A stretch of DNA of 64,000 nucleotides, from NCBI GenBank assembly GCA_036768485.1, contig JAVLUZ010000347.1, forward strand, positions 558,001-622,000, in the 5' to 3' direction. Of the stretch, positions 8,801 through 43,022 are shown one piece after another. Within the stretch, counting starts at the first letter, position 1; every line of letters starts with the position of its first letter. The notes under the pieces were generated by a model that did not search any database, was not told where the DNA came from, and saw nothing but the letters and a program-made list of their open reading frames with translations. The position numbers were made by a program, and so were the translations under genes. The stretch is from Mermis nigrescens (lineage: Eukaryota; Nematoda; Enoplea; Mermithida; Mermithidae).

Positions 8801-11800
8801 TCGATTTTTTAAATAATTTTTTCGTACGCAATAACCGTATTAGTTTTTAATTGTCTACTTATTTTCAGCAGACGTAGTTTGAAAATTTTGGAATCAGCTC
8901 CAAAAAAGTTTCGAAGTGTTTTTTGGCTTAAAATCGATGAGTTAATGTTAAAACAACATTTTTAGGTGTTTCTTAATACGTTTTTTTCTAAAACATTAAA
9001 ATGAGGAGAAATATTTTCTTTTTAAATTTCATGAAATCAAAAACGCATTTCGTTGCCCAAAAGTCGAAGGATTGAAATTTTTAAAATTTCTAGCTTATAT
9101 TCAAAATTTTAAAATTTAAAATCTGTGCCAATTAAAATTTTTTCCAATCATTTTCTCTTTTCCATATCTTCTTTAATTTTTCTTACAATATAAGTCTTTT
9201 AATTAAAATTACTTTTTTTCCAAAAAATAAACTGCGGTACTGAAAAGCTGGGAGAAGTAGGTAAAAATTGGCGAAATTCTAATTACAGTAGTTTTTGATG
9301 ATTTTCGCTTAAGCATTTTGTTGAATATAATATTTTCATAATAAAATATTGAGTTGCGTAATTTCATACGATTTTTATAATTTAACAATTTTTGTAATTA
9401 TTTATAATTTTTTCAATTACCGGCCTTTCAGGACCTAGGCGACGCCGTTACTATTATTAATACGAATTTGAACAAAAGGAAGGACAGAGTCCTATTTTAC
9501 AATGACGTGGAGTCGAATATACCGTTAGATGAAGGCAAGTCGTGAATTTTACTCCATTTTTATATTTTTTAAAGCTTATATTTTATATCTATATATTTTA
9601 ATATTTAAATATTTTTATTTTTGTATTTTTACATAGCTTTAAACTATTTGGAAGAGAGAAAAGTTTTGGTCACTACCTCTAATGTGCAGCGTTGGATTTT
9701 CAGATTTCATTAAGTGCAACGAATATTTGTAAACATTATAACTTTTTTGTGGAATACAAATGTAATAAAAGTGTAAAGTGGCAAACAGCTCACAAAATGG
9801 AACTAAAATAAAGTTTAAGATTGACTGTTTAGAATCCATGAGCCATAAACGGCACATTAAAGACGGTTGTTTTACTATTTTATCGAAAAATTCAGCACTT
9901 TTGGCTTTTATTTTGCCTCATTAGCCCCAGAAAATTTCCCATATTTCTATTCTGGGGCTCTAGACCACACATGGGCGTGAGGGGTATGCACCCCCAGAAG
10001 TTGGAATACCCCCCAGAAATCAAAATACCCCCCAGAATTCAAATTTCAAATTTTTTTTGCTTTTTTAGCGATTTTTTGATGCCATTGGATAGTGCTCGAT
10101 GAGAAACGTCGAAAAATGGTGTTTTTTCCACCATAAGACCGCTTTTAAGACAGACCATTTTTTGACGTTTGAAAATTTTTTTTACCCCTCCCCCAGAATT
10201 TCGATGCTGCCCACCTATGCTCTAGACCACTCAAGCCCGCCCAACCCCCACGTGCAAATGTAATCCCAACTACCCATACATGTAATAGGGGGTCTCCAAC
10301 CTAAAGTCGGTCGTCCCGCATCTCCCTAATGTCAGAAATTGTTAGGTCAAAAATTGAAATTCATTGACCCGCTTTCCTACCCCCCCCGAGAATTTCGAGC
10401 CAGCCGTTACTTGTCCATTTGGTATCTTTTTTTGGGCCACCCTGTATAAGGAATGGATTGCGATTTATTAACCACAGATTAACAGCCATGCGAGATTATG
10501 TTTGAACTTGATTCATGTTTACTGCACAATAGCGATGGTGTCCATACATGCACATAGGGGGTGAGTGGGCTATTACCCCCTGAAGGGTCAGCCGGACAGG
10601 TACTGTCCGGCGATTTTGAGCTGATGGAAGGTTTTTCCCCTCATTTTTGAGAGGTCAAAAGCAGTAAAAACGTCAAATTTTTCCGGCGCTTCGCGCCCGA
10701 TTAGTACTTTAAGTACTTTTTACTCGAGAAGCGCCCAAAATTGATATATTTTTGCATTGTTTAGTGTTGAAAGTGATATAATTAAGTCCAAATGGACTAA
10801 AAATGCTTTTAAAATGCGATATTACCGCGAAAAAATGTTTTATAGGATATTTTGACCATTTCGATCGTTAAAACAGCAAAAAAATCGTGAACGTGTACTT
10901 AACTGTTTCGGATTTTCGGGATTTCACCTCTCCTGCCGACCCTGACCTTGTGCACCTACATATGATGATGTCCAGGGGCGGATTTAGGGGGGGCGGCCGC
11001 CCCCATCATTGGCCCAAAATAGTGCGCAAAATTAAGGATTTTTGAGCGATTTTTAGCGATTTTCGGGTTAAAACGGCTAAGTTTTCCGCCCAAGTCGAGG
11101 TGTCGCCCCCCTTAGGGGTACCGCCCCTCTCTTAGGAAAATCCTGGATTCGTCACTGATGATGTATACAATTTCTAGCTCTTATCATGTTTTGTGTTTTG
11201 CAGTCGTCTTTAATTGCAACAGTTTTGCTCTGGATCAAAGATTTATACTTTTGCATTGCTTTTCCTTGCTATACTTACAAGATATTAGTTTTTATACGTT
11301 TCTGATCACTACATGTCATAAACTTTTATCAGTTCAGTATAATTACAAATAAACAGTGATTATAATGAAATATTAGTAAATTTGGCGAATTCAATTTTGA
11401 GGTTAATGTTTTGGGAAGTAGTCTAATGCATTAAACATTTAATCGAGTGCATTGAAATTTAAGTAGAACTTAAAGCGCTATATTTACGGATCGCAAGCTT
11501 CAGGCCTTTTTATATAATATAGAAAGTAATCTAAGATAATTTGACGAGAGTATTTTGTGATATTTTTTAAAAATAAAATTAATTTTCAACAAATTTCTCG
11601 AAACAAACCAGAAATATAAATTTCTTTTTTTACTTTTTCGTATTTAGATGCTAATCGTAACCATAAATGATCTCGGGAGGGGTCTCAGCCCCAGGCATCT
11701 AGCTGGCCGTCCTGTTCTTGGGGGGACCAACACAAATTTTTGGGGGGACTAAGCCCAAAAGGGCCAGAAATAGTACAAAATAACGTTTAAAAGTCTGATT

Positions 11801-14082
11801 TTTTTGAATTTAGGGGTGGGGTCCGGCCGGACCCCCCATTCGCGTCCCACAGAGATACGTGCCTGCTCACCCCCAAAAAAGCTTTCACCCCCTGCACCCC
11901 CAGAAAAGTTTTCACCCCTGCAAAAACTTCCCCCAGAATTGTCGATTTTTCGAATGTTTCCAAAAATTTATAGAAAAGATGTTTTTTAAGCGTTTTCTTT
12001 CAGATAAGTGCCAAATTTTCGGCTCTTTGCGCCATTATACTTATGTTTCGCGACTATATTCTGCTTTGATTTGTTCCGACTTTTTTTATTTTTTTCGAAA
12101 TTTTTTTGTTTTTATGCTCTAGAAAGATAGAGCATCGTTAGATTCGCTTAAAAACGATGTTTTTGACGCGTACCTACCATTTTTGGATAAAAAAGGCACA
12201 TTATAATTTCAACCCCTTCCATAGTTCCCATGCTACGCATATATGATCGTAACACTGTTTTTATTGCTTAGTTCAAGAATATTTTTTTATTCTTTGCATC
12301 TTGTCGGGGTTGATGGCATGAAAAGATAACGACCCGATTTGTTGCGGTGTCCGGTTTGGTTTGTAAAATTTCCAAAGGTGAACGTGGGTTGAAAAATTAA
12401 TGAGAGGGTCAATTAATGAGAAAAAATCGCGTAAAAAACCAAAACAATTTGAAAAATTTGATTCTATAGGGTCTTTAGAATTTTGGTTGTGGTCGTACGT
12501 GTACTGACCACACATGGGCGTGGGGGGTTTGGGAGTATGCACCTCCCAGAAGTTGAAATACCCCCCCACCAGAAATCAGAATACCTCCCAAAATTCAAAT
12601 TTTGAAATTTTTTTGCTTTTTCAGCGAGTTTTTGATGCCATTGGATAGTGCTCGATGAGAAACGTCGAAAAATGGTGTTTTTTGCCATACAACCACTTTT
12701 AGGACCATTTTTTGACCTTTGAAAATTTTTTCATCCCCCAGAATTTCGGTGCTGCCCACCTATGGTACTGACTCAAAGCGGTTTTCTGACCATATTTATG
12801 TGGTGTAAATGAGTCCAATTTTGGCCAACTGGCTGAATAAACGCCTGAAAATGGTAAAAAAATACTTGATTTTATCAAAAAATGGAGTTCAAACATTTTC
12901 AGACCTCTGAGTGATGGGGTACGGTTGACCCTGGGAGGAGGATCCCCCATTCCCACCTATCACATGTGTGGTTGTGTGACCCTTTGCACTCTGGGGTCCA
13001 CCTATACTTGTAACGGGGAGCTTTTGGGTTATCCACCGCCAAACTTTGAACTTCTCGCCCCTAAAGTCAGAAAGCTTTAGACCCTCACCTTCTATTTCTG
13101 GAAAAATTTGCGTTTTAGCCCTTTTACCTATTTTTTGACGGTTTTTGTTCAAAATTGGAGGTCATTTACCCACTGTTTTTTGTATTCGGCAAAGATTTTT
13201 CCCGATGTACAAAGACTTTTCGGGACCGTCTTTGTACATGTACAACGATTTTTGGGAAGACCAAAATTGCAAAAAGGTCTAAAATTCGGAAAAATTTCGG
13301 CTCTTCGCGCCGAAATGAATAATTGTTAATTGTGTGTTCTGGATATCTTTATAATAGCAGAAATTGCATTTCGAAAGGGAAAATGTCAAATCTTGTTTTA
13401 AGACCATTCTTAGTGATCTTTGCCTTTAAAGACCCAGAATTCAGCTAAAATACACTACCAAAAGTCGAACAACTCGGTTTTTACAACACGAAAATCGCTA
13501 CTGTATCATATTTTAGTACCCAAAAATTTGTGTGTACAAAATGTACAAAAACTTTTGGGGACCATCTTTGTACATGTACAAACGGAGCTTGTACAAAAAA
13601 CGCTGCATTTACCCCCCTTCCTCAATAGCCAGGACCCCCATGTAAGATTTTCAGCCGCTACATGTATGGTCAACAACACCCTGGATCCATGTGTGGTTAG
13701 CGGACCTACGCCTCGGAGTGGGATTTGAAACCCATGATCCAAAACTCCAATGGAATTGAAATTTTGGTATTTTTCCACGATTTTAGCGATTGTTTAAATC
13801 AAAACCCATAAAATTCAGTTTAAATTCTTTGGTTTCACACGTCGATATTTTTCTTCAGAATTTAAGGCCCTGTGGCGAAGCGTGGCAGTGGATCACTTGG
13901 ACGAAAAGAAAATCGACGAATATTTGCACAAGCACGGCATTGATTCGATGAAGGATCTGCCCCAAAAAAAGTCGGGTCCGGCCGGGCAAGCGCCTAAAAG
14001 AAAAAATATCCGAAAGCGCGCCATCGTTATGCACAACGAACATTTGAAAAATTCGGGCGTCCTCATGGATTTCGACGAATGA
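2674..14082 (+). CDS. GTF2E2: General transcription factor IIE subunit beta (TFIIE-beta), six exons, complete
   Basis: TFIIE-beta is the small subunit of TFIIE, which recruits and regulates TFIIH in the RNA polymerase II pre-initiation complex in the nucleus. Exons join in phase at 2674-2848, 3701-3759, 4885-4989, 7450-7635, 9432-9534 and 13859-14082, giving 283 aa (the human protein has 291). What is seen: an N-terminus starting MDPALLKQREAF like the family; a Lys/Ser-rich linker (about 20-58); FGNLAKVVDHMKKRH then LTFDEILEEA and TKQWLLEALPRNPRI (first winged helix, about 62-125); LLQVLKRHDLEGRAGILMSE, PNSEKAIK and RVLFYND (second winged helix, about 135-205); EEFKALWRSV; and a basic C-terminus with HNEHLKNSGVL. 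All introns are GT-AG except intron 5 (GC-AG). The introns hold R1, R2, R3, R4, R5 and R6 transposon copies. The short exon 2 was placed by homology and phase and is the least certain part. Confidence 0.93.
2949..3295 (+). mobile_element. R6 repeat, GTF2E2 intron 1
   Basis: Inverted match to 10578-10962. Ends GTGCACAAGGTCAGGATCGG and GTCCGGCTGACCCTTCAG. Shared core: TCACGATTTTTTTGCTGTTT and CAAAATGGTCGAAATA. Confidence 0.65.
3701..3759 (+). CDS. GTF2E2: GTF2E2 exon 2 (short)
   Basis: 59-base exon with acceptor AAACAG|CG and donor ATGAAA|GTATTA. It encodes QASMVASFGNLAKVVDHMK, which matches the family segment YKFGVLAKIVNYMK. It restores the phase needed between exons 1 and 3 (enters after one base, leaves in phase 0). 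It is too short for simple ORF detection. Confidence 0.8.
4340..4785 (+). repeat. R8-type repeat, GTF2E2 intron 2
   Basis: G-rich, AT-rich repeat ending GAGCCGTTACATGTATGCCC. Similar text (GCCGTTAC or GCCGCTACATGTATGG, with blocks like AAATGACCAAAAAACGCAAG) recurs near 10240-10430, 6840-7160, 12770-13150 and 13600-13672. Poorly bounded. Confidence 0.4.
4885..4989 (+). CDS. GTF2E2: GTF2E2 exon 3
   Basis: 35 codons with acceptor GAACAG|AAAAGA and donor CTTGAA|GTAGAA. It encodes KRHLAQTAWSLTFDEILEEA followed by HLFDLSNRTKQWLLE, part of the first winged-helix domain. Joining to exon 4 gives WLLEALPRNP, which aligns with the family. Confidence 0.9.
5355..5621 (-). mobile_element. R1 MITE in GTF2E2 intron 3
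   Basis: Flanked by GATATTAC on both sides (5347-5354 and 5622-5629), a perfect 8-bp target duplication. Confidence 0.85.
6233..6484 (+). mobile_element. R1 MITE in GTF2E2 intron 3
   Basis: Flanked by GGTGCTTGG on both sides (6224-6232 and 6485-6493); 8-9 bp target duplication. Confidence 0.85.
7450..7635 (+). CDS. GTF2E2: GTF2E2 exon 4
   Basis: 62 codons with acceptor CATCAG|GCTTTG and donor ATCAAA|GTGATA. It encodes the end of winged helix 1 and the start of winged helix 2, with RHDLEGRAGILMSELADCIP and PNSEKAIK as the recognisable motifs. The open frame extends upstream into the intron as a hydrophobic stretch from 7333; that part is not exonic. Confidence 0.92.
7980..8392 (-). mobile_element. 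R2 element, GTF2E2 intron 4
   Basis: R2 is a ~350-400 bp repeat with ends like CATGCGCAGCATGGGAATTC. Its core contains CGTCAAAAACATCATTTTTC, TTGAACAAAATATAGTC, GGCGCGAAGCGCC and AAAATCGCGAATTCTGG. No coding frame is conserved. Ends are approximate. Confidence 0.65.
8393..8680 (+). mobile_element. R2 element, inverted neighbour, GTF2E2 intron 4
   Basis: Head-to-head with the copy at 7980-8392. It lacks the left end and begins within GATACGCGTCAAAAACATCA. Confidence 0.62.
9432..9534 (+). CDS. GTF2E2: GTF2E2 exon 5, ending at a GC splice donor
   Basis: 103 bases with acceptor CTTTCAG|GACCTA. It encodes DLGDAVTIINTNLNKRKDRV then LFYNDVES. The exon must end GATGAAG because exon 6 starts AATTTAAGG, completing DEEFKALWRSV. 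The intron therefore starts GCAAGT, a good GC-AG donor. Confidence 0.88.
9966..10219 (-). mobile_element. R1 MITE in GTF2E2 intron 5
   Basis: Perfect 8-bp target duplication CTCTAGAC (9958-9965 and 10220-10227). Confidence 0.88.
10578..10962 (-). mobile_element. R6 repeat, GTF2E2 intron 5
   Basis: Partner of 2949-3295 in opposite orientation. Contains CCGGCGCTTCGCGCCCG, which the other copy has largely lost. Confidence 0.65.
10973..11157 (+). mobile_element. R4 hAT-type MITE, short form, GTF2E2 intron 5
   Basis: Ends CAGGGGCGGATTTAGG and TGGATTCGTCACTG. Flanked by ATGATGTC / ATGATGTA (7 of 8). Confidence 0.78.
11692..11865 (+). mobile_element. R5 hAT-type MITE inserted in R2, GTF2E2 intron 5
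   Basis: Starts CAGGCATCTAGCTGGCC and ends GATACGTGCCTG. Flanked by CTCAGCCC / CTCACCCC (7 of 8). R2 sequence continues to the right. Confidence 0.75.
11866..12242 (-). mobile_element. R2 element, GTF2E2 intron 5
   Basis: R2 core in minus orientation. Its right-hand end sequence is interrupted by R5 at 11692-11865. Confidence 0.62.
12509..12764 (-). mobile_element. R1 MITE in GTF2E2 intron 5
   Basis: Perfect 8-bp target duplication GTACTGAC (12501-12508 and 12765-12772). Confidence 0.88.
13171..13606 (+). mobile_element. R3 element, GTF2E2 intron 5
   Basis: About 435 bp, from ACTGTTTTTTGTATTCGG to CTTGTACAAAAAACGCTG; the short end repeats form an inverted pair (CTGTTTTTTG / CAAAAAACGCTG). 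Rich in GTACAAAGACTTTT and TTTGTACATGTACA, which is itself palindromic. Confidence 0.7.
13859..14082 (+). CDS. GTF2E2: GTF2E2 exon 6 with stop
   Basis: Acceptor TTCTTCAG|AATTT and stop TGA at 14080-14082. It encodes EFKALWRSVAVDHLDEKKID, then DEYLHKHGIDSMKDL, a basic stretch and HNEHLKNSGVLMDFDE, matching the TFIIE-beta C-terminus. Confidence 0.93.
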
Positions 14083-15456: not shown

Positions 15457-15499
15457 ACCTATACGTTTATGGTCCGCGCACATGTTTATAACTTGAATG

Positions 15500-15762
15500 C
15501 ATACGTGGGCAGCAAGAAAATTCTGGGGGGGTGCAAAAATTTTTTTGAAGGTCAAAAAAGGTCTTAAAAATGGTGGCATGGCGATAAAAACACCATTTTT
15601 CGACGTTTCTCATCAAGCACTATCCATTGGCATCAAAAAATTGCGAAACAAACGAAAAAAATTTTCGAAAATTGAATTCTGGGGGGTATTTTGATTTCTG
15701 GGGGGGTATTTTGGTTTCTGGGGGGTGGGTGCATACCCCCCAAACCCCCACGCCCAGGTGTG
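15500..15762 (+). mobile_element. R1 MITE, intergenic
   Basis: Perfect 8-bp target duplication CTTGAATG (15492-15499 and 15763-15770). Confidence 0.88.
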
Positions 15763-21335: not shown

Positions 21336-24300
21336 GTAAATCTTGGACTAAGAATACATTTTAGCCATAAATGAATATTACTTATGATAACTCATGCATT
21401 ATCATGTTTTTTCAAATATGGAACGACAGTATGTACTTAGAAGTGCAATATGTAGAAGTCGTATGGATAATGCTAGTAATACTAGGATTATTAATAATAC
21501 AGACTCAAGCTACTTTATTCAGTCAAGCTTCAGCTTAGAGACTTAAGTTTCAACTTAGGTCAACATTTCAAAAATACCGGCTGCCCCAGGATACGGCCAA
21601 GGGGGAAAGGGGCGGGGCGCACAAGATAATTTCGTTCATATCTTCAAAACTTTGTTGGGTTAGCTTGCGAAAATCGCATTTTTTGACGTTTTTTCAACTT
21701 GCTCTATCCATTAGGATTATAAAATTCGAGCTTTTAAACAAAAAATTTTCTTCTTCTCGATTTTATGACAAGAAGATGCAAGTTTTTCATTTTCCTGTGT
21801 TTTAGCTTACATTTCAAAAATTTTCTCTCAAAGGGACGCCCCCTCGCACCCTCCTTCTTATGAATACGGCCCTGGCTCAAAGTATTATTTTATTGCCACA
21901 TAACTGTTTTCGACCGTGATCCTTTATTTTGAAAAATGCTGAAAATTGTCCCATATTAATGAGTTAAATTTTTGTCGATATAAGGTAGACCGGCTGACCC
22001 CCTTTTCTTCAGATTGGCCATGCTTTGCAGTGCAGATGAAAAATTCCTAACGTGCAGACATATTGCTGGCCTTCTGAATCTAGGGGCGCGAACGATTTGA
22101 AGTCAAATATTACAACAACTGTGTATCAGGAGATAGGGAAAAATAATGCTATTTTTCTACGTCCCTTGCGTGCTCTACACACTGAAGGAGGCAAAATCGG
22201 AACAAAAAATATATCTTAGAGTCAGAAATGTGATAAAATGTGGCCATCATTCATATTCGTTCCAGGTTGCCTTTAAGAATCCTTGTGGAAAATAATCGTA
22301 CTTCCGAAATTTTGATCGACTGCCCCTATCCCGTAATCTCTTCAGCGGCGTGCCTGCTCACGTGCACGTCTGATCGAGACTTCAAGCCCCTTGCTATCGT
22401 TTCAATATTTAATTCTCACCTTTAAAATTTATTACGCATCATTATTATACGTACAAAGCCAGGGGAGGATTTGAGGGGAGGGGTGGGGGCGGCCACTCCC
22501 CATTGGCCAAAAATAGTTGGCGAGATAAAAAATGGATATGTAATTTGCAATGATTTTTGGCCGTCATTGATTACAGATTCTCAAATTTATCCGGCGCTTC
22601 GCGCCGGATAATATCTATCAATAACGTTTATTTACTTTTTTGGCGACCTAAAAGTCTTTTTTTGCTTTTGGATTATATTTAAAACAATTTCAAGTGCACA
22701 AACAGCTATTTAAGCATAGTTTTATTCTATTTTGAAGCATAACTTTTCAAAATTTTCAATGTTTCGAGTCAAATGCGGCAAATACAGCAAATTGAGCAGT
22801 GAATGCAGCTTCTGAACGTCTTTTTGCCTAAATTTATAAAAAATTTTCCGGTGCTTCGAAGAAACTTAACAATTTTTTAGCACAAAATTGTCGGAAATTT
22901 CAAAATATTTTCGAAAAAATGTTCGTCACAAGTAATTTTAAATAAAAGTAGGTAACGTAAGACGCCGAACAAACGTTATTTCGCACGTGCAGGGCACATT
23001 GTTGGACCCATTTTGACTGTTTGAGGAAAACTGGGGTTACCCCAGTAGTAAAGCCGGACCTTCTGGCTATACAATGGTTAAGCATAGCACATGGTTAAGC
23101 ATATAGCAGTGCTTAAGCATATAGCACACGCTTAAACATAGAGACTCTGTCTAGAAGGCGCTTTCGAGCCTTCATAGGCCCGTACTACGCATAACCTAAA
23201 ACATATAGCCCCATAGAGCCGAACGAGAAGGCCAACCCGTGAATCATAAGCACAAAACGCCACACTACTAGAGATCAACTCGATAAAAATTCCTACACCA
23301 CAATCCATTAGTACGACGCATATAACATCATAAAACGGGTTAAACGCTTAAACATCGAAACTCTGCCCTTGTAGGCACGAAGCACCAAATTTCGGTAAAA
23401 ATTCTTTAGAATAGTGTACTGATTATATTCTTAGCATTTTTATTCGATTTGGATAGTCTAGCAGAGCACTGCTGCCGGCTCTTCAACAGATGTGACAACT
23501 TCATTATTGTCTTCTCGTTTTCATCTGCTCATCCTCAAATAGATCGGCATTTTTGCGAATCAATTTTTTAAACATGTATTTTCGACTGGCCCAAGCTGTC
23601 TCATTAGCTTCCTTTTTTCCAAATTTTAATTCATACCGGTAAAAATTATTAGCGTTTTCTATTTCTTCCCTTAATTCGCTTTCATTTAGAGCATCTAGGA
23701 GTGAGTCATAAAAATCATAGAGAATATGGATTTTATCAACAAAACTGCTGTAAAATGGCTCGGTTTGGAGGTCTTGTATACTGTTCGGAAAATCTTCAAA
23801 ATCTGAAAGCACGGATGTTACTAAAAAGCGCCAAAACGGGCTAGTCCAACCACTTTCGATTACAGTCTCATTTGAGCTGCTTTCAGAATCTGAAGAATTT
23901 CCATTGTTACTGCCTTCACTACTATCATCATCTGTCATTTGTTCAGACTCTGATGTATCATTCCTCTTTTGTGATATCCCATGCATGAGGTATTTGTGTC
24001 TTTTTAAAGTAAAATTATTTAGTAATTGCTTACCGCAGATTTCACAGATTTTATTCATTTTGTCAACTATTCAAGATGTGGCATTCCTTAAATAAACTTT
24101 ATTGCACATGTGATTCGCGTTTACATCACATTCTTGACGAAGAAGCTCACATTCTTCACAATAATGGTCACTACCGTCATTTCATTTAATTCTATAGCCT
24201 AGCATGCATTTTCTTCATATGCATAACGTTAAGCATGGTTCTGAAGTGAAAATTATCGCTGACAAAGTGCTCCAATTTTCGACAATATCTCCAAGAATCG

Positions 24301-27300
24301 CAATTTTGTCGGTAATATCGTCAATACAACCTCACACAGAAAGGTGGTTTGCTAGTCAGTTGTTAGCTGATGCAACTACAAATAGGTGATTTTTATGAAA
24401 CGCGCCCAATTTTCAGAGGAATGTGACGATGTGATGGTTTTTGTGCAGAATGTGAGGTGCACAATTTGGAATGTGAGATTTTTCTGCAAAATGTGAGGTG
24501 CACAAAATCCTCACATTCTGCACAAAAACCATCACATCGTCACATTCCTCTGAAAATGTATACCAGGAGGTTCATACCTTCTCGCCCTTGGCGACTGATA
24601 AGCTAGAAGCAAACGCGCCCGATTTTCAGAGGAATGTGACGATGTGATGCTTTTTGTGCAGAATGTGAGGTGCACAATTTGGAATGTGAGATTTTTCTGC
24701 AAAATGTGAGGTGCACAAAATCCTCACATTCTGCACAAAAACCATCACATCGTCACATTCCTCTGAAAATTGGGCGCGTTTCATAAAAATCACCTATTTG
24801 TAGTTGCATCAGCTAACAACTGACTAGCAAACCACCTTTCTGTGTGAGGTTGTATTGACGATATTACCGACAAAATTGCGATTCTTGGAGATATTGTCGA
24901 AAATTGGAGCACTTTGTCAGCGATAATTTTCACTTCAGAACCAGGCTTAACGTTATGCATATGAAGAAAATGCATGCTAGGCTATAGAAATAAATGAAAT
25001 GACGGTAGTGACCATTATTGTGAAGAATGTGAGCTTCTTCGTCAAGAATGTGATGTAAACGCGAATCACATGTGCAATAAAGTTTATTTAAGGAATGCCA
25101 CATCTTGAATAGTTGACAAAATGAATAAAATCTGTGAAATCTGCGGTAAGCAATTACTAAATAATTTTACTTTAAAAAGACACAAATACCTCATGCATGG
25201 GATATCACAAAAGAGGAATGATACATCAGAGTCTGAACAAATGACAGATGATGATAGTAGTGAAGGCAGTAACAATGGAAATTCTTCAGATTCTGAAAGC
25301 AGCTCAAATGAGACTGTAATCGAAAGTGGTTGGACTAGCCCGTTTTGGCGCTTTTTAGTAACATCCGTGCTTTCAGATTTTGAAGATTTTCCGAACAGTA
25401 TACAAGACCTCCAAACCGAGCCATTTTACAGCAGTTTTGTTGATAAAAACTCACTCCTAGATGCTCTAAATGAAAGCGAATTAAGGGAAGAAATAGAAAC
25501 CGCTAATAATTTTTACCGGTATGAATTAAAATTTGGAAAAAAGGAAGCTAATGAGACAGCTTGGGCCAGTCGAAAATACATGTTTAAAAAATTGATTCGC
25601 AAAAATGCCGATCTATTTGAGGATGAGCAGATGAAACGAGAAGACAATAATGAAGTTGTCACATCTGTTGAAGAGCCTGGCAGCAGTGCTCTGCTAGACT
25701 ATCCAAATCGAATAAAAATGCTAAGAATATAATCAGTACACTATTCTAAAGAATTTTTACCCGAAATTTGGTGCTTCGTGCCTACAAGGGCAGAGTTTCG
25801 ATGTTTAAGCGTTTAACCCGTTTTATGATGTTTTATGCGTCGTACTAATGGATTGTGGTGTAGGAATTTTTATCGGTTGATCTCTAGTAGTGTGGCGTTT
25901 TGTGCTTATGATTCACGGGTTGGCCTTCTCGTTCGGCTCTATGGGGCTATATGTTTTAGGGTTATGCTTAGTACGGGCCTATGAAAGGCTCGAAGCGCCT
26001 TCTAGACAGAGTCTCTATGTTTAAGCGTGTGCTATATGCTTAAGCACTGCTATATGCTTAACCATGTGCTATGCTTAACCATTGTATAGCCAGAAGGTCC
26101 GGCTTTACTACTTACCCCCTTTGGAAAATCCTAGATCCGCCACTTTATAAACTGTAAGTATTTTAGTCGCGCGATTGTTTTCAGATATTTCAGATTATTT
26201 TGAATATCAGATAATTAAAAAGAAACTTAGTCCAGCCGCGTGATGATCGAGTTTAACGACTAAAACATTCTTGTACATATAAGAAAAAAGGTGGTCAAGT
26301 ATATCATAGGTAGCGCTATCGCGCTACCTATGATAAGAATTCAGATGCTGTTTGATTACGGGATAAATTTTGAAAACTGACATATCTGTTTTTGTCAGTA
26401 ATTTCGCGCCGAATACAGTGATTTTTTATTTAAAATAAGGGCTCACTTCAAAACGCTTCAAAGAAAAAATAAATAAATAATAAACGAATAAACTCACTTG
26501 TTCACTGAAATTTATTCGGGAACTAGCTCATTTTAGAGCAGCATGAAGAATAAACTTATCTTTTGTAGAGGATGCTCTTTCTCGAATTCAGGTGTCTCTC
26601 TCTCCTTAAATTTTCGATTCTAGACTGCCCAAATTTGTGATTTTTTCAAATTTTTCAAAATTTCAATTTTTGACTTTTTTAAATTTTGTCCTCTTCCTAT
26701 TGAAAAATTACTTCTTTCGACAACGTCTACATTAGGTAAAATTACTTTTTTTAAATTCTCTGAAGCGTCAGCTTTTTATGAGCAGAAAAATGGGTCAGCT
26801 TCGTTAATCCTAATAATAGTGCGGACTGGTATCAAATGGAAGTTTTCATGAATGAATAGAGACTTTTTTGTGAATGTTATTACACAAAATAGAAATAATT
26901 AATAATGCATTAGGTGGAAACGAAGAGGGTGAAAAATTGGAAAAAAAGATTCGTTCAGCCGGAATTGACGTAGCCGAAACAACTAATCAAGCATACATTT
27001 ATAAAAGCAATAGCAATCAACCTCCTGCCAATCAGCATGTGTACTAAATGACTAATCAGACAATTATATAAAAATCCATATCAGTTAAAAAGTTGATAAC
27101 TATGAAATAAACGAATCTATGTAATGCACGACCTTCATAAATGCACAGCATTGAATGTCTAGAGGGTTGAGCAGAATTTTTTAATGTCAAAACTACCTCG
27201 AATACTTTTATAAATGTTAAAAAATAATTTTGAAAAGTTATCTTGATTTACGGTTTCCGTGAATTTAAATCCATTTTTGCAGAAAATTTTTTGATTTTCA

Positions 27301-36300: not shown

Positions 36301-39300
36301 GAATCGGGAAGATGGATTTTCAACTGGATTCATCGAACGATAGGCGTTTCAGCACTGGGATGTGCATGTGAGCAATCAATGCTTGTTCTTGAGGGGGCGT
36401 TTTACCCCAAACTTTAAAAATATAAAATTTAAAAGCCAAAATTCGTAACTCCATGACCCTAATCCTAACCCTAAGCTGACCTAACACCCTTATCGTGGCC
36501 CTGCTCAGTGGCGGATCCAGGAATTTCCTAAGGGGGGCGGAACCCTGACTTGGGCGGAAAATTTAGTCGTTTTAAGCCGAAAATCGCTAAAAATCGCTCA
36601 AAAATCCTTAATTTTGCACACTATCTTGGGCCAATGGGTGTGGCGGTCGCCCCCCCCCCGCCACCCCCTAAATCCGCTCCTACCCTGCTGCTAGATCTCG
36701 GAATTTTTGATTTTCCTAAACGCTTGATGAAATTTGCTGCTTTAGGCTTTTTTATTGGGTATCTTTTTTTCTCAAAGGTATCGACTTTTTCGCTAAATAC
36801 TTAATTTTTAGTCACATTCTGTATAATTTACTTGAATTTTGACCTCCGAAAATTCTTAGGGCGGACCCCTAGACTTTACGTATCGCTTCAATCCCCTGGA
36901 GAATAGGTGAAGATAAATAGATCGCCCCTTGTGCCTTTTATTCACTTGTTTGGGACAAAACCTAAAGCTAACAAGGAATTCGTGGAATTTATGAAATAAT
37001 TCAATGATTGAAATTTTCGGCCTGGTTACTGCGGAAATACATCGAAAACATTTTAAAATGTTTCCGTTCGAGAAGTAGAAAAGGTTTAAAATTAACTCTT
37101 CCTTGAAATTAAAATTAATTAAAACTAAAATTAACTCTGACCATATCGTTCTGAATCCTCATCACATTCTTACGTAAAGATATCGTATACCGCCAGAAGG
37201 TTCAGCGAATAGGTCAGGAAACTCAACTTGAAGGATCAATATTTTTCGATTTTAGTTTTTCATGATGCTTTTTGCATAATTTTTGTGTTATTTTTTCTTT
37301 TGCTTTAGTTTTTCCATTTGTTCTTACAGTTTTTTCCACTTTATATTTTTTCTTTTTGTACGCATTTTTTCCCTAGAAATTTTTTTTATTTTCTCTCTTT
37401 TTCTATTTTATTTTTCTCTTCAGTTTTTTATTTCACTCATTTTAAAATTTTTTCCGGGCTATCATTCCTCTAGTACGTTTTTTATAAAATGTTTTTTTGT
37501 CCTTAAAAATCATATAATGAACGTTTTTTTTTGCTTTAAAATTTTTTTCAATTTTTTAGATATATTTTTTTAATTTTTCTAAACGATGGATAAACGCAAT
37601 TTTTCCATGATTCTGTAATATTTTTTTAAAATTTATATTCTCTATTTTTTGGATATATGTCAGTTTTCTAAGGCGCCGCGATATGGTTCGCTTCGAATTT
37701 CAATGGTTTGGGCCTAAATCCGAATGATATCGATGGGAATGGCTCTGCTGGCAAGGGCATGATCATTTTTTACTTCGTTTCGATCATTTGTCTAATCCTT
37801 GCCTTGGAACTGCTGATAACTCTGGCCGAAAGATTAAAATCTAACAGAGTCTCGGAGGGAGAGGGCGCGAATCATTTTCGAGTCGAACCCCTTAAAACGA
37901 CGAATCAGGGCATCCTAAATTATAACGTGGTACGGTTAAGTGGAATTTCTTAAAATATTGTTTAATTAAATGGAAAAATTATACTTCGAATGTGTCATTT
38001 AAAAATAAATTATAAAAGTGTTTCCTTAGTTAAAAAAATCTTGAAACGCTTATATGTGTTAGCTTAAATTAGATTATATTCAGTCATAATTAGATTATAC
38101 AGGGTGATTAAAAAAACAACCACCTAGTTTTTTCTAAATATTTATCTAAATACTGAACGCAGAAGAAAATGCAATACAGCAACAAAAAGAAAATTTAATT
38201 GCGCATCAAGTGCCATATATATCATATAGATTCGATTAAAAGTTGGTTCAAAGAAAAATTTTTCGCAATGTCCTCCGGAGGTCATTACGACAAAACGTAA
38301 ACGTCTACGACATTCGTCTATCGATCCGATCCTGCGATAATTTGCCCCAGCAAAATTGAATTCGTCGGTTCAGGGCTTCTAAACTGTTTATTGTATTTCT
38401 CATAAACCATTTGCTGAAGTGCGCCCCAGACATAATAGTCCATGACATTAAGATCGGGAGAACATGGTGGCCATTCATTTGGTTTCAAAAAGTTTGGATA
38501 ATTTTCCTTCAACCACGAAACCGAGAGCCTTGATGTGGGCGAAATTGCACCATCCTGCTGCAAGATGAAATCACCGTCGGGATTCAACTTCATCGTGTCT
38601 TTTTTGGCCGATTTCAAAATTGAAATGTATCGTTGGCTATTGAGTTTTGAATTTTGATCGATGGAGTAAATTTTCGATTTTCCGCGTACGGATACTGCTG
38701 CCCAAACCATTATTTTTCTCGGAAAATGTTGTCTTTCGATGATTAAATTTGCTGCAGGAATATTTCGTTTTAACGTTTCCTTGCTATATATACACCTTAT
38801 TGTTTTGCGTACACACGGGAGATGAATCTATGAGAAAATCCTTTTCGTCGGAAAAAACAAGTTTGTCCAAAGTCGACAATGTGATTTTTCGGATCAAACG
38901 TTTAGACCTATCCAATCGCCTGTCTTTCGTTTTTGCGTTGATTTCTTGAAGCGGAACCCGCTTAAAAACGTTGATTCTGCTATCTTTCAAGATTCGACAG
39001 ACGGATGGCTGAGTTATTCCAAGTTTTCGGCTAATTTTACGCTGCGACAGGTGAACGCCTATCTTGTCCTGCGGGCTGATTGCCAGTTTTTCCACCTTAC
39101 AAAAATTGCTTACAGTTACAATTCGTGCCGAACGAGGTCGGCCACTGCCCTTTGTTCGTTCGACAGATCCAGTTCTCCTGATCTTATTTACCAACGTTTT
39201 AATACCGCCAAGTGTCCTATTGGGTTGCCAGAAACTTTTGAAAATGCGGTTGGCTCCGTAACCGTGGTTGGTCGCTAGCTTGAATATAAGGCTCCGGGAG

Positions 39301-40476
39301 TTCGGCGAGATTTTGCCCATTTTCAGAGCAAATGATACGCAACTACACAAGACTATAGAGGAATAATTTCTCTATCCAGCAGTGTAAACTTCGTATCACA
39401 AGCGCGTTTTAAACGGACGTTATTGCAAAATATAAAGTGGATGTTTTTTTGAATCACCCTGTATAATAAGATCGTGTAATTTGATACTAATAAATTGTAT
39501 AACTTAGTTATTTAACAATAAATTATTTATGCATGATTTGTTTATTTTAAGATATGCACTTAACTTTTTATAATGTTGCTGAGTAATTTATTGACATACT
39601 GTTGGATATCATTTTTTGCTTCTGAATAAATAAAATTTTTTTTGGCCTGTTTTAACTTTTTTCAAAAAGGGTATTTTGTGGAGAATATGTGCGAAAATTG
39701 AAACGTCGATGTTTTTGTCGCATTTTTTACCCATTACTTTGACTTTTTTCGCAGAAAAATATTTTTTCTGAATTTACGCAAATTGAAAATTACGCTTAAG
39801 AATTGAATATTGTTTTACTCCCCTGAAAATTTTATATAAAGTCATTTTTAGTAATGCGCCTTGATTAATATTCTTTTGTATAGCGGTTTACCATATTTTT
39901 CGGGGAATTATCGTTATTGTATCGAACGTTTAAGAGAGGCTTTTTTTGTGGCCTCAATTTCCTTTAGTTTAATGTCAGTAAAAACCGTAGTTTTTCTAAA
40001 ATCGCAGATAGGCTCTGACGGTGCAAGTAAAAAAACGTTCTTAACCATTCTAAATTTTTGGCAATTATAGCATATGCTTATTTTTTATGAGTGAGATCGC
40101 TTCCGTGATCTCAATTTTGATACATGTTCAAAAAATTCATCTTTTTTTCCTTAAAACTTTGCGTGAAATTCATGCGTATCTATGCACGAAATCTAAGTTT
40201 TATTCGCGCATTAATTTTCCTGACTCGAAGTTTAAGATTTGCTAAACGTAAGTTTTCCTGATTTAAAATTTCAGCGCTCATTCTGCAAATCAGTCAATTG
40301 ATGACGTAAGAACGAAAAATCAATATTTTTTCTTTTGATTTGCAGCGATTATAATTATTCGAACTCAATCGAGTTTTTTTCAGTGGAACCTGTCACGCAT
40401 CGCACTATTGACTGTGTTTTTCGTCATTGCTATCGCCGTATGTGTCACTTTAGCGTGCTTCATTGGTCTGGCTTGA
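21291..40476 (+). CDS. FRRS1: FRRS1-like ferric-chelate reductase (DOMON + cytochrome b561), ten exons, paralogue A
   Basis: Proteins of this family are membrane oxidoreductases proposed to move electrons across a membrane to ferric chelates. Exons: 21291-21335, 28254-28475, 29112-29225, 33227-33386, 34421-34591, 35219-35334, 35963-36055, 36208-36367, 37673-37929, 40384-40476; all join in phase to about 476 aa. Seen: signal peptide (1-15 or beyond); DOMON domain (about 27-200) with DCGRTKGC, YVAVGFSHDTSM and GDDAVTYCIYD; b561 core (about 235-430) with four candidate haem histidines in KAHG (H237), LHRAL (H278), NHAVLG (H313) and WIHRTIG (H349); five helices plus an extra C-terminal helix (about 450-475). 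There is no N-terminal reeler domain, unlike vertebrate FRRS1. Intron 1 holds the 3-kb palindromic element and intron 9 a mariner element. The exon 3 donor is abnormal, so a defect in splicing is possible. FRRS1-type identity is firm; the electron donor and true substrate are not known from sequence. Confidence 0.88.
21583..21893. mobile_element. Possible hAT-like MITE, FRRS1-like A intron 1
   Basis: A G/C-rich left end (CCAGGATACGGCCAAGGGGG) and right end (CTTATGAATACGGCCCTGG) look like decayed inverted ends around an AT-rich core. Single copy in the window, so the family is not confirmed. Confidence 0.4.
23038..23043. repeat. Target-site duplication, left (TACCCC)
   Basis: Six bases directly repeated at 26113-26118. 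The R4 sequence reads GGGGT-TACCCC-CTTTGGAAAATCC when the element and one copy are removed mentally. Confidence 0.85.
23076..23143. repeat. Subterminal tandem repeat in the palindromic element, left arm
   Basis: Four imperfect 17-19 bp units built on GNTTAAGCATATAGCA, starting near 23076, 23093, 23111 and 23130. The mirror set is at about 26013-26080 in the right arm. Subterminal repeats of this kind often serve as transposase or integrase binding sites. Confidence 0.6.
23504..24058 (-). pseudogene. C2H2 zinc-finger protein of the palindromic element, left-arm copy, frameshifted
   Basis: 184-codon frame reading outward from the centre. Residues 3-26 form one C2H2 finger (CEICG, then H-x4-H spaced as C-x2-C-x12-H-x4-H). 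An acidic Ser/Asp/Glu/Asn-rich linker (about 33-67) follows, then a globular part with WTSPFWRFLVTSVL and a basic ETAWASRKYMFKKLIRKN. One extra A in a run near 23517 shifts the frame after EDEQMK, so the C-terminus is lost compared with the right-arm copy. This copy keeps a nine-residue segment (IHILYDFYD) that the right copy lacks. The family is not recognised; DNA binding is inferred from the finger. Confidence 0.72.
24410..24557. repeat. Central hairpin unit 1 of the palindromic element (148 bp)
   Basis: An inverted repeat with arms of about 48 bp: it starts TTTTCAGAGGAATGTGACG and ends CGTCACATTCCTCTGAAAAT. The loop of about 50 bases itself contains GGAATGTGAGA and AAAATGTGAGGTGCAC. The motif AATGTGA, or its complement, occurs six times. 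Confidence 0.8.
24623..24770. repeat. Central hairpin unit 2 of the palindromic element (148 bp)
   Basis: A direct repeat of unit 1 with the same length and very few changes (GATGTGATGC for GATGTGATGG). The 65-bp spacer between the units (24558-24622) is the only clearly non-repeated DNA in the element and marks its centre. Confidence 0.8.
25121..25732 (+). CDS. C2H2 zinc-finger protein of the palindromic element, right-arm copy
   Basis: 203 codons, the longer of the two arm copies, reading outward. Same finger, acidic linker and globular part as the left copy, with an intact C-terminus that adds EDNNEVVTSVEEPGSSALLD and a short tail. It carries an in-frame 27-base deletion near residue 109. 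An upstream stretch of 36 codons in the same frame (24998-25105), with CEEC and HMC, is cut off by one TGA at 25106-25108, present in both arms. No family is recognised. A transcriptional or transposition accessory role is inference. Confidence 0.65.
   Translation: MNKICEICGKQLLNNFTLKRHKYLMHGISQKRNDTSESEQMTDDDSSEGSNNGNSSDSESSSNETVIESGWTSPFWRFLVTSVLSDFEDFPNSIQDLQTEPFYSSFVDKNSLLDALNESELREEIETANNFYRYELKFGKKEANETAWASRKYMFKKLIRKNADLFEDEQMKREDNNEVVTSVEEPGSSALLDYPNRIKMLRI
26113..26118. repeat. Target-site duplication, right (TACCCC)
   Basis: Partner of 23038-23043. Confidence 0.85.
27604..27775 (+). mobile_element. R5 hAT-type MITE, FRRS1-like A intron 1
   Basis: Starts CAGGCACATAGCTGGCC and ends GATACGTGCCTG. 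Perfect 8-bp target duplication GCTTTCTA (27596-27603 and 27776-27783). Confidence 0.87.
28254..28475 (+). CDS. FRRS1: FRRS1-like A exon 2 (DOMON part 1)
   Basis: 74 codons with acceptor GTTTTTAG|ATTAGT and donor TCGATG|GTCAGC. It carries DCGRTKGCLYKPDGC and YVAVGFSHDTSM. The exon ends on the Met of the DOMON M-GDD motif. In the family this Met is a candidate haem ligand. Phase 0 on both sides, as in B and C. Confidence 0.9.
29112..29225 (+). CDS. FRRS1: FRRS1-like A exon 3 (DOMON part 2), abnormal donor
   Basis: 38 codons from acceptor TTTTAG|GGCGATGAT: GDDAVTYCIYDPEKSKHAAG onward. B and C end this exon at a GT donor (GCG|GTAATT, GTG|GTAATG). A has GCA|GCATTA at the homologous place, that is GC instead of GT in a poor context. 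A weak in-frame GT donor at 29211 (CGTGTT|GTGTCG) would instead give 29112-29210, five codons shorter. Confidence 0.75.
29410..29438 (+). repeat. (TTA)n microsatellite
   Basis: About nine TTA units, in FRRS1-like A intron 3. Confidence 0.85.
30538..31322 (+). mobile_element. R2 element interrupted by R3, FRRS1-like A intron 3
   Basis: The R2 left part is 30538-30778 and the right part about 31206-31322. An R3 copy sits between, within GAGCAGTCAG. Confidence 0.68.
30779..31205 (-). mobile_element. R3 element nested in R2, FRRS1-like A intron 3
   Basis: Starts CAGTGTTTTTTGTACAAGG and ends CCAAAAAAACAGTGG, giving a terminal inverted repeat of about 12 bp. R2 sequence continues on both sides. 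Confidence 0.72.
32119..32519 (+). mobile_element. R2 element, FRRS1-like A intron 3
   Basis: Near full length, from CATGTACAGCATGGGAATTC to a G-rich end with GGGGTCAACCCCC. Contains GGCGCGAAGCGCCG. Confidence 0.65.
32713..33125 (+). mobile_element. R2 element, FRRS1-like A intron 3
   Basis: From CAGACATGCGCAACC to GATCATGTGTG. Flanks TTTATAAG / GTTACAAG are a weak possible 8-bp duplication. Confidence 0.6.
33227..33386 (+). CDS. FRRS1: FRRS1-like A exon 4 (DOMON part 3)
   Basis: 160 bases with acceptor ATATTTAG|GCATTG and donor CTGCTAC|GTCAGT. It encodes ALGHVVLESSTVLDGNFLCR then ISQKLRPDFKSDQVRNLDSG and the end of the domain. It has the same length and phase (0 to 1) as exon 4 of B and C. 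Confidence 0.9.
34421..34591 (+). CDS. FRRS1: FRRS1-like A exon 5 (DOMON to b561 linker)
   Basis: 171 bases with acceptor TTTCTAG|CTAACA and donor GCTCACG|GTGATT. It encodes KLRAHVFNQGDPRFPFISGS through FNLVKAHG. KAHG opens the b561 core and supplies the first candidate haem His (H237). Confidence 0.9.
35219..35334 (+). CDS. FRRS1: FRRS1-like A exon 6 (b561 helix 1)
   Basis: 116 bases with acceptor TTTACAG|GAATTC and donor TTCAAT|GTAATT. It encodes GILMIFGWLLFVAMAVLIAR YF and a short loop. The helix followed by ARYF is typical of the first b561 membrane segment. Confidence 0.92.
35394..35616 (-). mobile_element. R1 MITE in FRRS1-like A intron 6
   Basis: Perfect 8-bp target duplication GTTCTGAC (35386-35393 and 35617-35624). 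Confidence 0.88.
35963..36055 (+). CDS. FRRS1: FRRS1-like A exon 7 (b561 helix 2)
   Basis: 31 codons with acceptor TTTTTCAG|CTGCAT and donor GGCGGG|GTAATG. It encodes LHRALNICGVLLIVAAFICI and the helix end. H278 in LHR is a candidate haem ligand. Confidence 0.9.
36208..36367 (+). CDS. FRRS1: FRRS1-like A exon 8 (b561 helices 3 and 4)
   Basis: 160 bases with acceptor TTTGTAAG|GACCGC and donor TGTGCAT|GTGAGC. It contains YNHAVLGMTASICAFAQPII, RCHPGESGRWIFNWIHRTIG and SALGCA. H313 and H349 are candidate haem ligands. Confidence 0.92.
36506..36681 (+). mobile_element. R4 hAT-type MITE, short form, FRRS1-like A intron 8
   Basis: Begins CAGTGGCGGATCCAGG and ends AAATCCGCTCCTA. Flanked by GCCCTGCT / ACCCTGCT (7 of 8). 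Confidence 0.78.
37270..37590 (+). repeat. Long T-rich tract in FRRS1-like A intron 8
   Basis: Strongly pyrimidine-biased; gives a spurious 96-codon Phe-rich frame. It precedes exon 9 and may act as an extended polypyrimidine tract. Confidence 0.6.
37673..37929 (+). CDS. FRRS1: FRRS1-like A exon 9 (b561 helices 4 and 5, cytoplasmic tail)
   Basis: 257 bases with acceptor TTTTCTAAG|GCGCCG and donor AACGTG|GTACGG. It completes helix 4 and adds FYFVSIICLILALELLITLA. Without splicing the frame runs 8 codons further to TAA at 37951-37953, so intron retention would still give a complete core lacking the last helix. Confidence 0.87.
38100..39461 (-). mobile_element. Tc1/mariner-type transposon in the last intron of FRRS1-like A
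   Basis: 1,362 bp between TA dinucleotides. Ends are CAGGGTGATTAAAAAAACA and, as reverse complement on the right, CAGGGTGATTCAAAAAAACA. It carries a transposase on the minus strand. The element lies between exons 9 and 10, antisense to the host gene. Confidence 0.9.
38318..39350 (-). pseudogene. Mariner transposase, DD37D spacing, frameshifted
   Basis: Two minus-strand frames cover one transposase. 39350-38784 has paired helix-turn-helix regions (SRSLIFKLATNHGYGANRIF, KISRKLGITQPSVCRILKDS) and the first catalytic Asp in VFSDEKDF. 38710-38318 has the second Asp in ILQQDGA and the third in CSPDLNVMDYYVWG. From the second to the third Asp there are 37 residues, as in maT-type (DD37D) elements. 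The two frames are separated by one frameshift near a TATATATA run at about 38785-38795, after which the reading continues in the other frame. The copy is therefore inactive but young. Confidence 0.85.
40384..40476 (+). CDS. FRRS1: FRRS1-like A exon 10 (C-terminal membrane helix, stop)
   Basis: 30 codons plus TGA, with acceptor TTTTTTTCAG|TGGAAC. It encodes WNLSRIALLTVFFVIAIAVC then VTLACFIGLA, a single hydrophobic helix. A related frame at 54126-54221 after paralogue B supports this being a real terminal exon. Confidence 0.78.
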   Translation, partial: WNLSRIALLTVFFVIAIAVCVTLACFIGLA

Positions 40477-40910: not shown

Positions 40911-42442
40911 TCTACGGTTTACACTTGGGCGTGGGGTGTTGAAATTACTGAATGTAAAACGCCACTAAAGACCCCCAAAATAAAATTTTGCAGTTTTCCA
41001 AAAACGAAATTTTGTATTTTTTTCGTGATTTCGGTTCCGCAAGACTCCCAGGTTTTGGGAGCTGACCATGTATGGTGGTCATACGTAACACGTTTATATG
41101 GTTTACACCTTCGAGCAGACCTCGAGTTATGTGCTTTTGACCCAGCAATTCCTGAAGCATGATCAAATTAGGATGAAAATTGATTAGTATATTTTATTTC
41201 ATCATCCTTTTCTTCAGTACTTCTACTAGAGTTTAATTAAGGAATTTAGAAATAATGTACAAAAAATACTTTGAAAATCGTGAAACCTAAAGAATGACAT
41301 TAAAAATAAATCGTCGGCTGACTATAACTTCTGTAAACTTTTTTATGAAATAATTGCAATCACTTTACTTTGTAAATTATTCAGTTATTCTTGGTTGGAG
41401 CCAAGAAATAGACAACGATGTTTTAGTCAATAAGCTTGTGCAGATAGCAGAAAATTAACTTGGCTTCAAACCTTACAAATTTCATGCTACTTCTTTACAA
41501 TGTGCGGTGTAAAGTGATGTAAAGTATGATTTATTATTTTTAATCACGATCGGTCACGGTGTACCTGAATTTTCTTGTCATTTTGCTAATAGTTGTCTAT
41601 TTCTATCAGATGTCATCAATGGCGTTTTTTCCAATCGAGCGAGTTGTGTATAAGAATGAGGATTTTTATTTAATTTTATTTTTTATTTTTTACTCTAATT
41701 CCCCGTTCCCGTGAACTTTCGATCAGATTTAATAGTAGCTTGTTTATGTAGAACGCTAAAAAACATTTTAATATAAGCTGCTCGCTTATAAGCAAATTTT
41801 TATGGCATCCTAAGTAAATTTCTACATTTTTCACAACGCATTGATTCAGCGTTATGCCGCATGAATAGTGAATTCCTCTATACATTGCTTTGAACAAGTT
41901 TCCTAAATTATTATAAAAATTGTGAGAAATCGAAGTTGGGTCGCCTTTTTGACCATTTTCAGAAAATCATGTTCATTTTGTTTCCCAGGCAAGTACTGAA
42001 ACTAAGATCGAAAATAATATGCCTAAGTTTAAACCACTTTACACTGCAGTGAAGTTAGAAAACGAAATGCTATCCTTTACTCTTAAGGTCGACTAGTTTT
42101 TCTACCACTGCAAAAATAGCATTCATTTCGTTCAATTGCGAACAAAGTTAAAGCCGTAAATACCGTTGTTTTACCGTTGTTTTTTCTGCCCGCACTGAGT
42201 GTATACAATATTATTGTATTTCACAGACTGGCGTGAATAGCTTAAATCGGCTGGTTGCTTTGAGATTTTGTTGTCTTGTATTATAATTATGTTTGTCAAT
42301 CTATTCATTATTATTCAACAATTATTCGTTAACTTGTCTGGTTTAAATTAGTAAAAATTTATCTGTTTAACTAATTTGTGTTATGCTTCATGATTTGAAA
42401 TTTCGAATTTTTCTCACGATGGGTATTGCGGTCATGCAGGAT

Positions 42443-43022
42443 AGTGGCGGATCTAGGATTTTCCTAAGGGGGGGTATCCCAACTTTTCCAAAAACAGTCA
42501 AAAATAGGTCCGAAAAATTGCCCTTAATGCGCGAAATAGCGTTTTTTCGGTGTTTTAGATTGTATACTTTTAAATAAAATCACTTTTGACGCAATATTTT
42601 TTCTTAAAATTTTAAAATTTTCGACAATTTTGTGCGGAAAATCATTAAATTTCTTCAACTTTTACAAAACTCTGGCGCGTAGCGCCGGAAAATTTGTGAA
42701 ATTAAGACAGATAGACGTCTAGAAGCATGATTTACTGTATGATTTCCTGTTGTTATAGCATTTGATGCGAAATATCGAAATTTTCGATTAAAAATAGAAG
42801 AAACTATGCAAAAATAGAACAGAAAATGGCTTCCAGGTCCCCTAGAAAGTTAATAAATGTCAATAATAGATATCATCCGGCGCGTAGCGCCGGAAAATTT
42901 CGAGAATTTTCGGTCACTGACGGCCAAAAATCATTGCAAATTGCATATCCATTCTTTACCTCGCCAAATATTTTTGGCCAAGGGGGGCTTCCGCCCCCGC
43001 CCCCTCCTTAAATCCGCGCCTG
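42443..43022 (+). mobile_element. R4 hAT-type MITE, full length, intergenic A-B
   Basis: 580 bp, AGTGGCGGATCTAGG to AAATCCGCGCCTG. Flanked by a perfect TGCAGGAT duplication (42435-42442 and 43023-43030). It carries two CCGGCGCGTAGCGCCGG-type hairpins. Confidence 0.85.

Follow-up and report, generated by a model that had tools for sequence, protein, structure and literature searches.

Maverick/Polinton elements are thought to be integrated viruses, of which virus particles had not been observed (PMC8097293). The same text gives intact vertebrate Mavericks a size of 12,723-24,620 bp, 6-bp duplications, terminal repeats of 46-1,447 bp and end motifs of either (AGT)2//(ACT)2 or (AG)3//(CT)3, the commonest vertebrate ends being 5'-(AGT)2//(ACT)2-3'. 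A 64,000-nucleotide stretch of the nematode Mermis nigrescens (the window; positions 558,001 to 622,000 of contig JAVLUZ010000347.1, here C274, in the 524-Mb, 860-contig assembly GCA_036768485.1) contains at 23044-26112 a palindromic element whose family shares with Mavericks the 6-bp duplications, the (AGT)2//(ACT)2 ends, terminal inverted repeats (here arms of ~1.4 kb) and 218-241 bp of near-identical end sequence with elements that carry the Maverick polymerase pPolB. In contrast to Mavericks, the palindromes measure ~3-5 kb against 12.7-24.6 kb (a vertebrate figure), lack pPolB, integrase, ATPase, protease and capsid genes, and consist almost entirely of inverted repeat, each arm carrying a gene. 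The family very probably uses Maverick machinery, and its members are probably gene-bearing, non-autonomous Maverick satellites that arose and stay palindromic through fold-back copying and are moved in trans.

Other transposons offer a more distant comparison. As far as the accessible text of the respective papers goes, Tm1 of root-knot nematodes (MULE superfamily; PMC3169594) and Galileo of Drosophila (P superfamily; PMC3573991) resemble the element in having long inverted repeats as much of their length and in having non-autonomous copies, whereas their duplications (9 bp and 7 bp, respectively), termini and transposases are different and no gene inside the inverted repeats is reported there. 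Dada is described in the available part of its source as generating a 6-7-bp duplication in small-RNA genes and as having no terminal inverted repeats (PMC3706591), in contrast to the long inverted repeats found here and to the absence of any Rfam match within the window. Ginger, again from partial text, has TGTNR ends and 4-5-bp duplications (PMC2836005), unlike the AGTAGT ends and 6-bp duplication of this element. Among the listed titles and abstract openings of literature joining Maverick/Polinton with palindrome, fold-back or non-autonomous, a scope that leaves out main texts and most subscription papers, such elements are not named; the phrase "Polinton-derived" does occur in print.

A preliminary description of the window had proposed a near-perfect palindrome at 23044-26112, and self-comparison confirmed it to the base. 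The element begins with AGTAGTAAAGCC, its opposite terminus is the exact reverse complement, and a perfect TACCCC duplication flanks it, all as first described; the arms, initially put at ~1.35 kb, measure ~1.4 kb. Aligned with each other, they show 1,382 identities and 5 substitutions in 1,387 aligned bases, together with seven 1-bp indels and one 24-bp indel. The overall build, ends and insertion site comprise the following features.

23044-26112, no strand assigned: whole palindromic element, 3,069 bp (self-comparison of the window)
23044-24457, + strand: left arm, 1,414 bp (inverted-repeat alignment)
24722-26112, - strand: right arm, 1,391 bp, repeating the left arm in inverted orientation (inverted-repeat alignment)
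23038-23043, no strand assigned: left target-site duplication TACCCC
26113-26118, no strand assigned: right target-site duplication TACCCC
23044-23049, + strand: end motif (AGT)2, given in PMC8097293 as the most frequent end of vertebrate Mavericks
26107-26112, + strand: end motif (ACT)2
23076-23140, + strand: subterminal tandem repeats of the TTAAGCATA/TTAAACATA type
26016-26080, - strand: mirror copy of the subterminal repeats

The window holds 10 AGTAGT and 5 ACTACT sites, and among their combinations at spacings of 100 to 30,000 bp only 23044-26112 has identical 6-bp flanks. The insertion point lies inside a host repeat, 32 bp from the repeat terminus, and the insertion can be seen directly because two paralogues of this repeat, at 506-665 (+) and 42420-42580 (-), run uninterrupted through the same point. 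The interrupted repeat itself consists of 22460-23043 plus 26113-26145, with relatives at 398-640 and 42443-43022 and related ends also at 641, 19895, 36506 and 42442; its terminus, CAGTGGCGGATC, resembles hAT ends. The subterminal repeats of the palindrome are possible binding sites for a transposase or an origin-binding protein. The only ORFs (open reading frames) above 120 residues in the element are its two gene copies, and neither a Pfam scan nor the ORF list disclosed pPolB, integrase, ATPase, protease or capsid domains in the 3,069 bp. Since these defining genes were tested for and are absent, the element is not itself a Maverick.

The palindrome belongs to a numerous family. All copy counts given here are lower bounds taken from scored candidates only. 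The first 357 bp of the element have at least 58 DNA matches in the assembly (40 of 639 candidates scored), and the protein encoded in the arms has at least 150 matches on 84 contigs (150 of 1208 candidates scored), so that the single copy without relatives, which the preliminary description had kept in view, did not materialise. Gene pairs up to 7 kb apart are divergent in 37 of 37 cases and account for 74 of the 150 scored hits, the other 76 having no scored neighbour. An inverted mate is present at 27 of 30 loci examined around the gene, several of these loci being two arms of one element; of the remaining three, two are the arms of a single element whose centre is wider, and the third is a truncated element. 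Measured sizes range from ~3.0 to 4.9 kb.

A count of target duplications over the copies, as the preliminary description had envisaged, bears out the 6-bp length. Exact 6-bp duplications lie beside AGTAGT-type ends in 18 of 20 palindromic pairs with both arms covered (14 by automatic pick, that of contig C68 as a second pick, and those of C612 and the two C81 copies read separately). These represent 17 independent duplications, all different, because the two C81 copies share identical flanks (1300/1300 bases). In the other two pairs, one (C58) has no remaining Maverick ends and the ends of the other (C101, at 1.47 Mb) lie outside the stretch examined. As a control, left and right flanks of different rows agreed in none of 272 combinations (17 rows, including C422 and two internal picks). 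Terminal AGTAGT//ACTACT is found in all 18 duplication-bearing pairs, with one change in one end of the C582 element. The C81 palindromes, at 2246611-2249907 and 2350610-2353906, are in opposite orientation with identical flanks, which points to inverted duplication, either of the genomic region or of the assembly. At C612:255300-260229 (loci L010/L012), an extra, outer copy of the terminal repeat lies beyond the usual arm, as if repeats were stacked. A pair of genes 19.5 kb apart on C821 was considered as a Maverick carrying the gene at each of its ends and rejected: the 8 kb behind its left copy consist of an element centre followed by repeat-type short ORFs, with no Maverick gene recognisable by eye.

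The link to Mavericks comes from the termini, whose outer 218-241 bp align at 95.9-98.6% identity with five ends belonging to four longer elements (C68, C178, C74 and both ends of C422).

23044-23287, + strand: terminal part common to five ends of the four longer elements (sequence alignment)
25888-26112, - strand: the same terminal part at the right end

The C68 element (12815454-12825416; 9,963 bp) has AGTAGT//ACTACT ends and a TTTACA duplication on both sides, and broken pPolB pieces lie behind its end at 12815454, with DNA_pol_B_2 recognised at E 6e-16 in one of three scanned ORFs. C178 is 92.8% identical to C68 over 1.6 kb, and C180 carries the shared end at ~89% with a pPolB match 2 kb inward. 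C422, whose terminal repeat runs over ~870 aligned bp, encodes a chromodomain ORF (Chromo, E 1.6e-10) that by eye resembles the tail of Maverick integrase, an ATPase-like ORF with sub-threshold matches including Adeno_IVa2, AAA_14 and Pox_A32, and a separate F-box-like ORF. C74 has an F-box-like ORF only and was identified solely by its 98.9% likeness to one C422 end. Full-length relatives bearing integrase and polymerase between the same ends had been foreseen in the preliminary description; pPolB pieces are indeed found there in C68, and no intact integrase gene was seen, no search aimed at integrase having been made. The shared ends suggest that the family derives from Mavericks by descent and movement. 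Both classes initially considered, a Polinton derivative and a fold-back family, are supported by the ends, the 6-bp duplications and the termini held in common with pPolB and chromodomain elements.

Maverick helpers in this genome are plausible because pPolB is abundant and often in long open frames: DNA_pol_B_2 has at least 168 matches in the assembly (80 of 1063 candidates scored), many in frames above 1000 residues, and none in 14 control genomes. Identically scoring pPolB matches in open frames above 1000 residues are found on different contigs (C29, C77, C187, C348, C542, C47 and others), which suggests recent Maverick bursts in the genome. A 148-residue ORF at L066 (C422:158058-161000) has a YQRGAGLGSFFRSLFR-type stretch that by eye is like minor virion proteins of Mavericks or adenoviruses, with no Pfam match.

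The gene read outward from each arm, together with its leader motifs, is arranged as follows.

25121-25732, + strand: C2H2-finger gene, right copy, 203 residues (ORF)
23504-24058, - strand: C2H2-finger gene, left copy, 184 residues, frame-shifted near its end (ORF)
25026-25053, + strand: leader of the right gene, pair of AATGTGA motifs at a spacing of 21 bp
24126-24153, - strand: leader of the left gene, pair of AATGTGA motifs at a spacing of 21 bp

Two divergent, outward ORFs are thus present as originally described, the left one frame-shifted, and their C2H2 label depends on a single finger that matches C-X2-C-X12-H-X4-H, a C2H2 spacing; a search of the ORF with hidden Markov models, as foreseen in the same description, gave Pfam zf-C2H2_4 at E 0.028, under the Pfam cut-off. 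The 203-residue ORF is beyond chance expectation, as such a length was reached in none of 2000 first-order Markov simulations of the arm (simulated maximum, 193). The right copy lacks 24 bp (8 codons) found in the left copy and in the usual family ORF; the best-scoring copies in the assembly mostly lie in open frames of 214-215 residues, the frame of the right window copy having 207, and the 47 best of the 150 scored copies, as counted from the list of matches, have no in-frame stop. One gene copy in a very long open frame was set aside as an artefact, since it adjoined a masked run.

No homologue of the C2H2 protein was found in a protein collection that seems poor in eukaryotes, and this result says little because a DOMON exon of the window was also without a homologue there. 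Searches of viral contigs with peptide, end, hairpin and subterminal-repeat patterns yielded no relatives; two matches of 17 nt in bacterial bins were attributed to chance. The structure predicted from the single sequence was uninformative (mean pLDDT 42.5), and a weak sequence match of residues 110-178 to chain GINLFY (E 8e-4) was dropped after it gave E 4e-3 with a full-length family copy.

The preliminary description held that only arm sequence and one gene remain; the centre is instead a modular hairpin array, and the element is no lone remnant in view of its many relatives.

24398-24557, + strand: hairpin module P1, with arms 24409-24457 and 24509-24557, a 51-nt loop and AATGTGA motifs
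24558-24610, + strand: spacer S, 53 bp, between the hairpin modules
24611-24781, + strand: hairpin module P2

The right arm of P2 is complementary to the left arm of P1 at 60 of 60 positions and to its own left arm at 58 of 60, as expected if it had been copied from P1; two private changes would arise by chance with P ~0.005 at the divergence of the arms. The window has 26 copies of AATGTGA, 16 of them inside the element and several ~20-21 bp apart, and a regulatory role of the C2H2 gene at these repeats may be envisaged. In a map of centres covering 26 of 30 loci (L044, L045, L049 and L050 were left out, the mate start not being found in range), the symmetry axis differs among members: where one spacer is present it lies in S, with a 64-nt loop (L039, L048/L054, L056/L057), and where two are present it lies in the loop of the central hairpin, of 49-51 nt (C48, C101, C447, C194 and others) or 36 nt (L055). 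The two arm alignments abut at the centre in C553, and longer unsymmetric centres are found in the window element (264), C508 (238) and C230 (589).

The arms of one element are also more alike than those of different subfamilies. Among seven subfamily representatives, excluding C508 (one arm incomplete) and C422 (no palindrome), within-element arm divergence averages 1.34% with a maximum of 2.88%, whereas the nearest arms of different representatives are 4.43% apart on average, with a minimum of 1.84% (21 comparisons). As to variable columns, 83 agree between the arms everywhere, 85 differ between left and right in at least one representative, and 5 do so in at least two. Arms up to 2.88% apart indicate that they drift once inserted, so that their likeness would have to be renewed at or before mobilisation. 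Taken with the varying axis and the copying of P1 in the right arm of P2, this likeness argues for fold-back copying.

Protein-primed viruses offer a further comparison. In their symmetric defective genomes, such as adenovirus end duplications, one end of the linear DNA is duplicated and inverted and the rest is lost. The palindromes would share with these the duplication and inversion of one protein-primed end and the loss of the remainder; they differ in being integrated, in having multiplied as a genomic family and in carrying a gene with many intact copies. The starting material is proposed to be one end of a linear, Maverick-type DNA, comprising the terminal repeat, the outward C2H2 gene, its leader and the hairpin modules. 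If the 3' end of a strand, lying in one hairpin, annealed to the complementary arm of a neighbouring hairpin, it could copy the whole Maverick end again, giving a molecule with the same end on both sides and little else. As both ends would retain a protein-primed origin and an integrase recognition site, resident Mavericks might then replicate the product and insert it with a 6-bp duplication. Because each strand is self-complementary, the same copying would keep the arms alike and let the axis shift between hairpins.

One stretch in the C68 Maverick bears on where the arm came from: 251 bp that match the C2H2 gene's leader at 85% identity as far as ATGAATAAAATC, its first codons. This relative faces the end without pPolB, while the pPolB end shares the terminal repeat only. 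That the leader occurs once, and at one end, speaks more for a duplicated end than for a deletion within long terminal repeats, short of proof.

Several points weigh against satellites formed by fold-back copying. The coding part past the start codon is unrecognisable in C68 and a host repeat flanks the leader, so this copy could be a fragment of later date; among the elements examined in the assembly, none was a Maverick with a single intact C2H2 gene. C422 is not a palindrome, and its flanks (GTAGAT/GTAAGC) are unmatched, with no duplication; the TATATA duplication in C447 lies in a TA run and may be chance. Young subfamilies, in which separate elements resemble each other as closely as do the two arms of a single one, are uninformative for that reason, and arm likeness can also stem from recent origin or gene conversion. 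The reference for the Maverick end motif is vertebrate, and the host here is a nematode. Purifying selection on the gene shows only as a weak sign, a pooled pN/pS (nonsynonymous to synonymous polymorphism) of 0.63 from 4 of 20 distinct intact sequences, namely those at least 1.5% apart. Finally, on C693 (L081, C693:334300-337300), positions 479-1843 hold one lone arm unit that includes the C2H2 gene and corresponds to element positions 262-1672; it lies between a pPolB leader, assigned by eye, and a C-terminal pPolB part (tblastn against other pPolB loci, best E 1e-47), and this half-palindrome inside a Maverick remnant leaves room for an arm unit that entered Mavericks from elsewhere.

A bolder variant, put forward tentatively, sees a hairpin-genome satellite that parasitises Mavericks. 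Its heritable unit would be half an element whose two ends are a protein-primed terminus and a hairpin; the integrated palindrome would be the inverted dimer of replication, its arms homogenised in each cycle, and the C2H2 protein might bind the AATGTGA repeats of the hairpins and steer Maverick replication or expression to the satellite's favour.

Less probable again is simple internal deletion, in which an ancestral Maverick with the gene in both of its ~1.4-kb terminal repeats lost its interior and moved in trans, with no fold-back. Terminal repeats of up to 1,447 bp in vertebrate Mavericks (PMC8097293, accessible text) and the ~870 bp of C422 speak for it; however, the five ends of the longer elements match the arm over 218-241 bp only, and the gene leader is single and at one end in C68. 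An axis that varies among members, falling at hairpin modules or the intervening spacer, and arms that evolve together across subfamilies likewise speak against it.

It is rather doubtful that the gene and hairpin array form a separate hyperparasitic unit that enters Mavericks and borrows the adjacent terminal repeat, the palindrome being two such units between Maverick ends. The same core, inward from position ~236-262, does occur with different outer ends, and the C693 copy is one lone arm unit between pPolB pieces; against this, gene pairs within 7 kb are divergent without exception (37/37), 27 of 30 loci have an inverted mate, and none of the 30 is a single unit with its own ends, most of the 76 neighbourless hits lying outside this sample.

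It is very unlikely that the element is a conventional fold-back transposon that moves by cut and paste and belongs to another superfamily (P/Galileo, MULE/Tm1, Dada or Ginger). Long inverted repeats and non-autonomous copies are known there from the accessible text of PMC3169594 and PMC3573991, yet the duplication here is 6 bp, not 9 (Tm1), 7 (Galileo) or 4-5 (Ginger), and Dada is described as lacking terminal inverted repeats. The element has no transposase ORF, its termini match gene-bearing Maverick elements, and the ends held in common with pPolB elements refute this possibility in the main. Least credible is an assembly artefact or a chromosomal inverted duplication: palindromes are prone to artefacts in reads and the C81 copies do sit in an identical inverted duplication, but the flanks of the two sides differ, the element is bracketed by short, exact duplications, there are paralogues without the interruption, the arms hold differences of their own, and the same build recurs in 17 independent copies.

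If the satellite explanation holds, a family of palindromes with Maverick ends would amount to a fossil record of free Maverick DNA. Such palindromes suggest that Mavericks produce linear DNA by protein priming and that this DNA folds back, in the manner of adenovirus defective genomes, and that satellites endowed with their own gene can arise from Maverick by-products. The family would also make it possible to study trans-recognition of Maverick ends and to see whether helpers are held in check by their satellites.

Elsewhere in the window, a broken Tc1/mariner-like transposase occupies 38318-39320 on the - strand in two ORFs of 178 and 130 residues, its family assigned by eye with sub-threshold DDE_3 and helix-turn-helix (HTH) matches. 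Two copies that are 86% identical, at 50686-50888 and 60092-60294, overlap a DOMON-type ORF (DOMON, E 8e-6, below the cut-off) and are perhaps duplicated host genes. An abundant repeat of ~250 bp, built of C-rich units of the ACCCCCCAGAAATCAAAAT type, is present at 5353-5609, 9981-10219, 12507-12764, 15497-15762, 54598-54864 and other positions.

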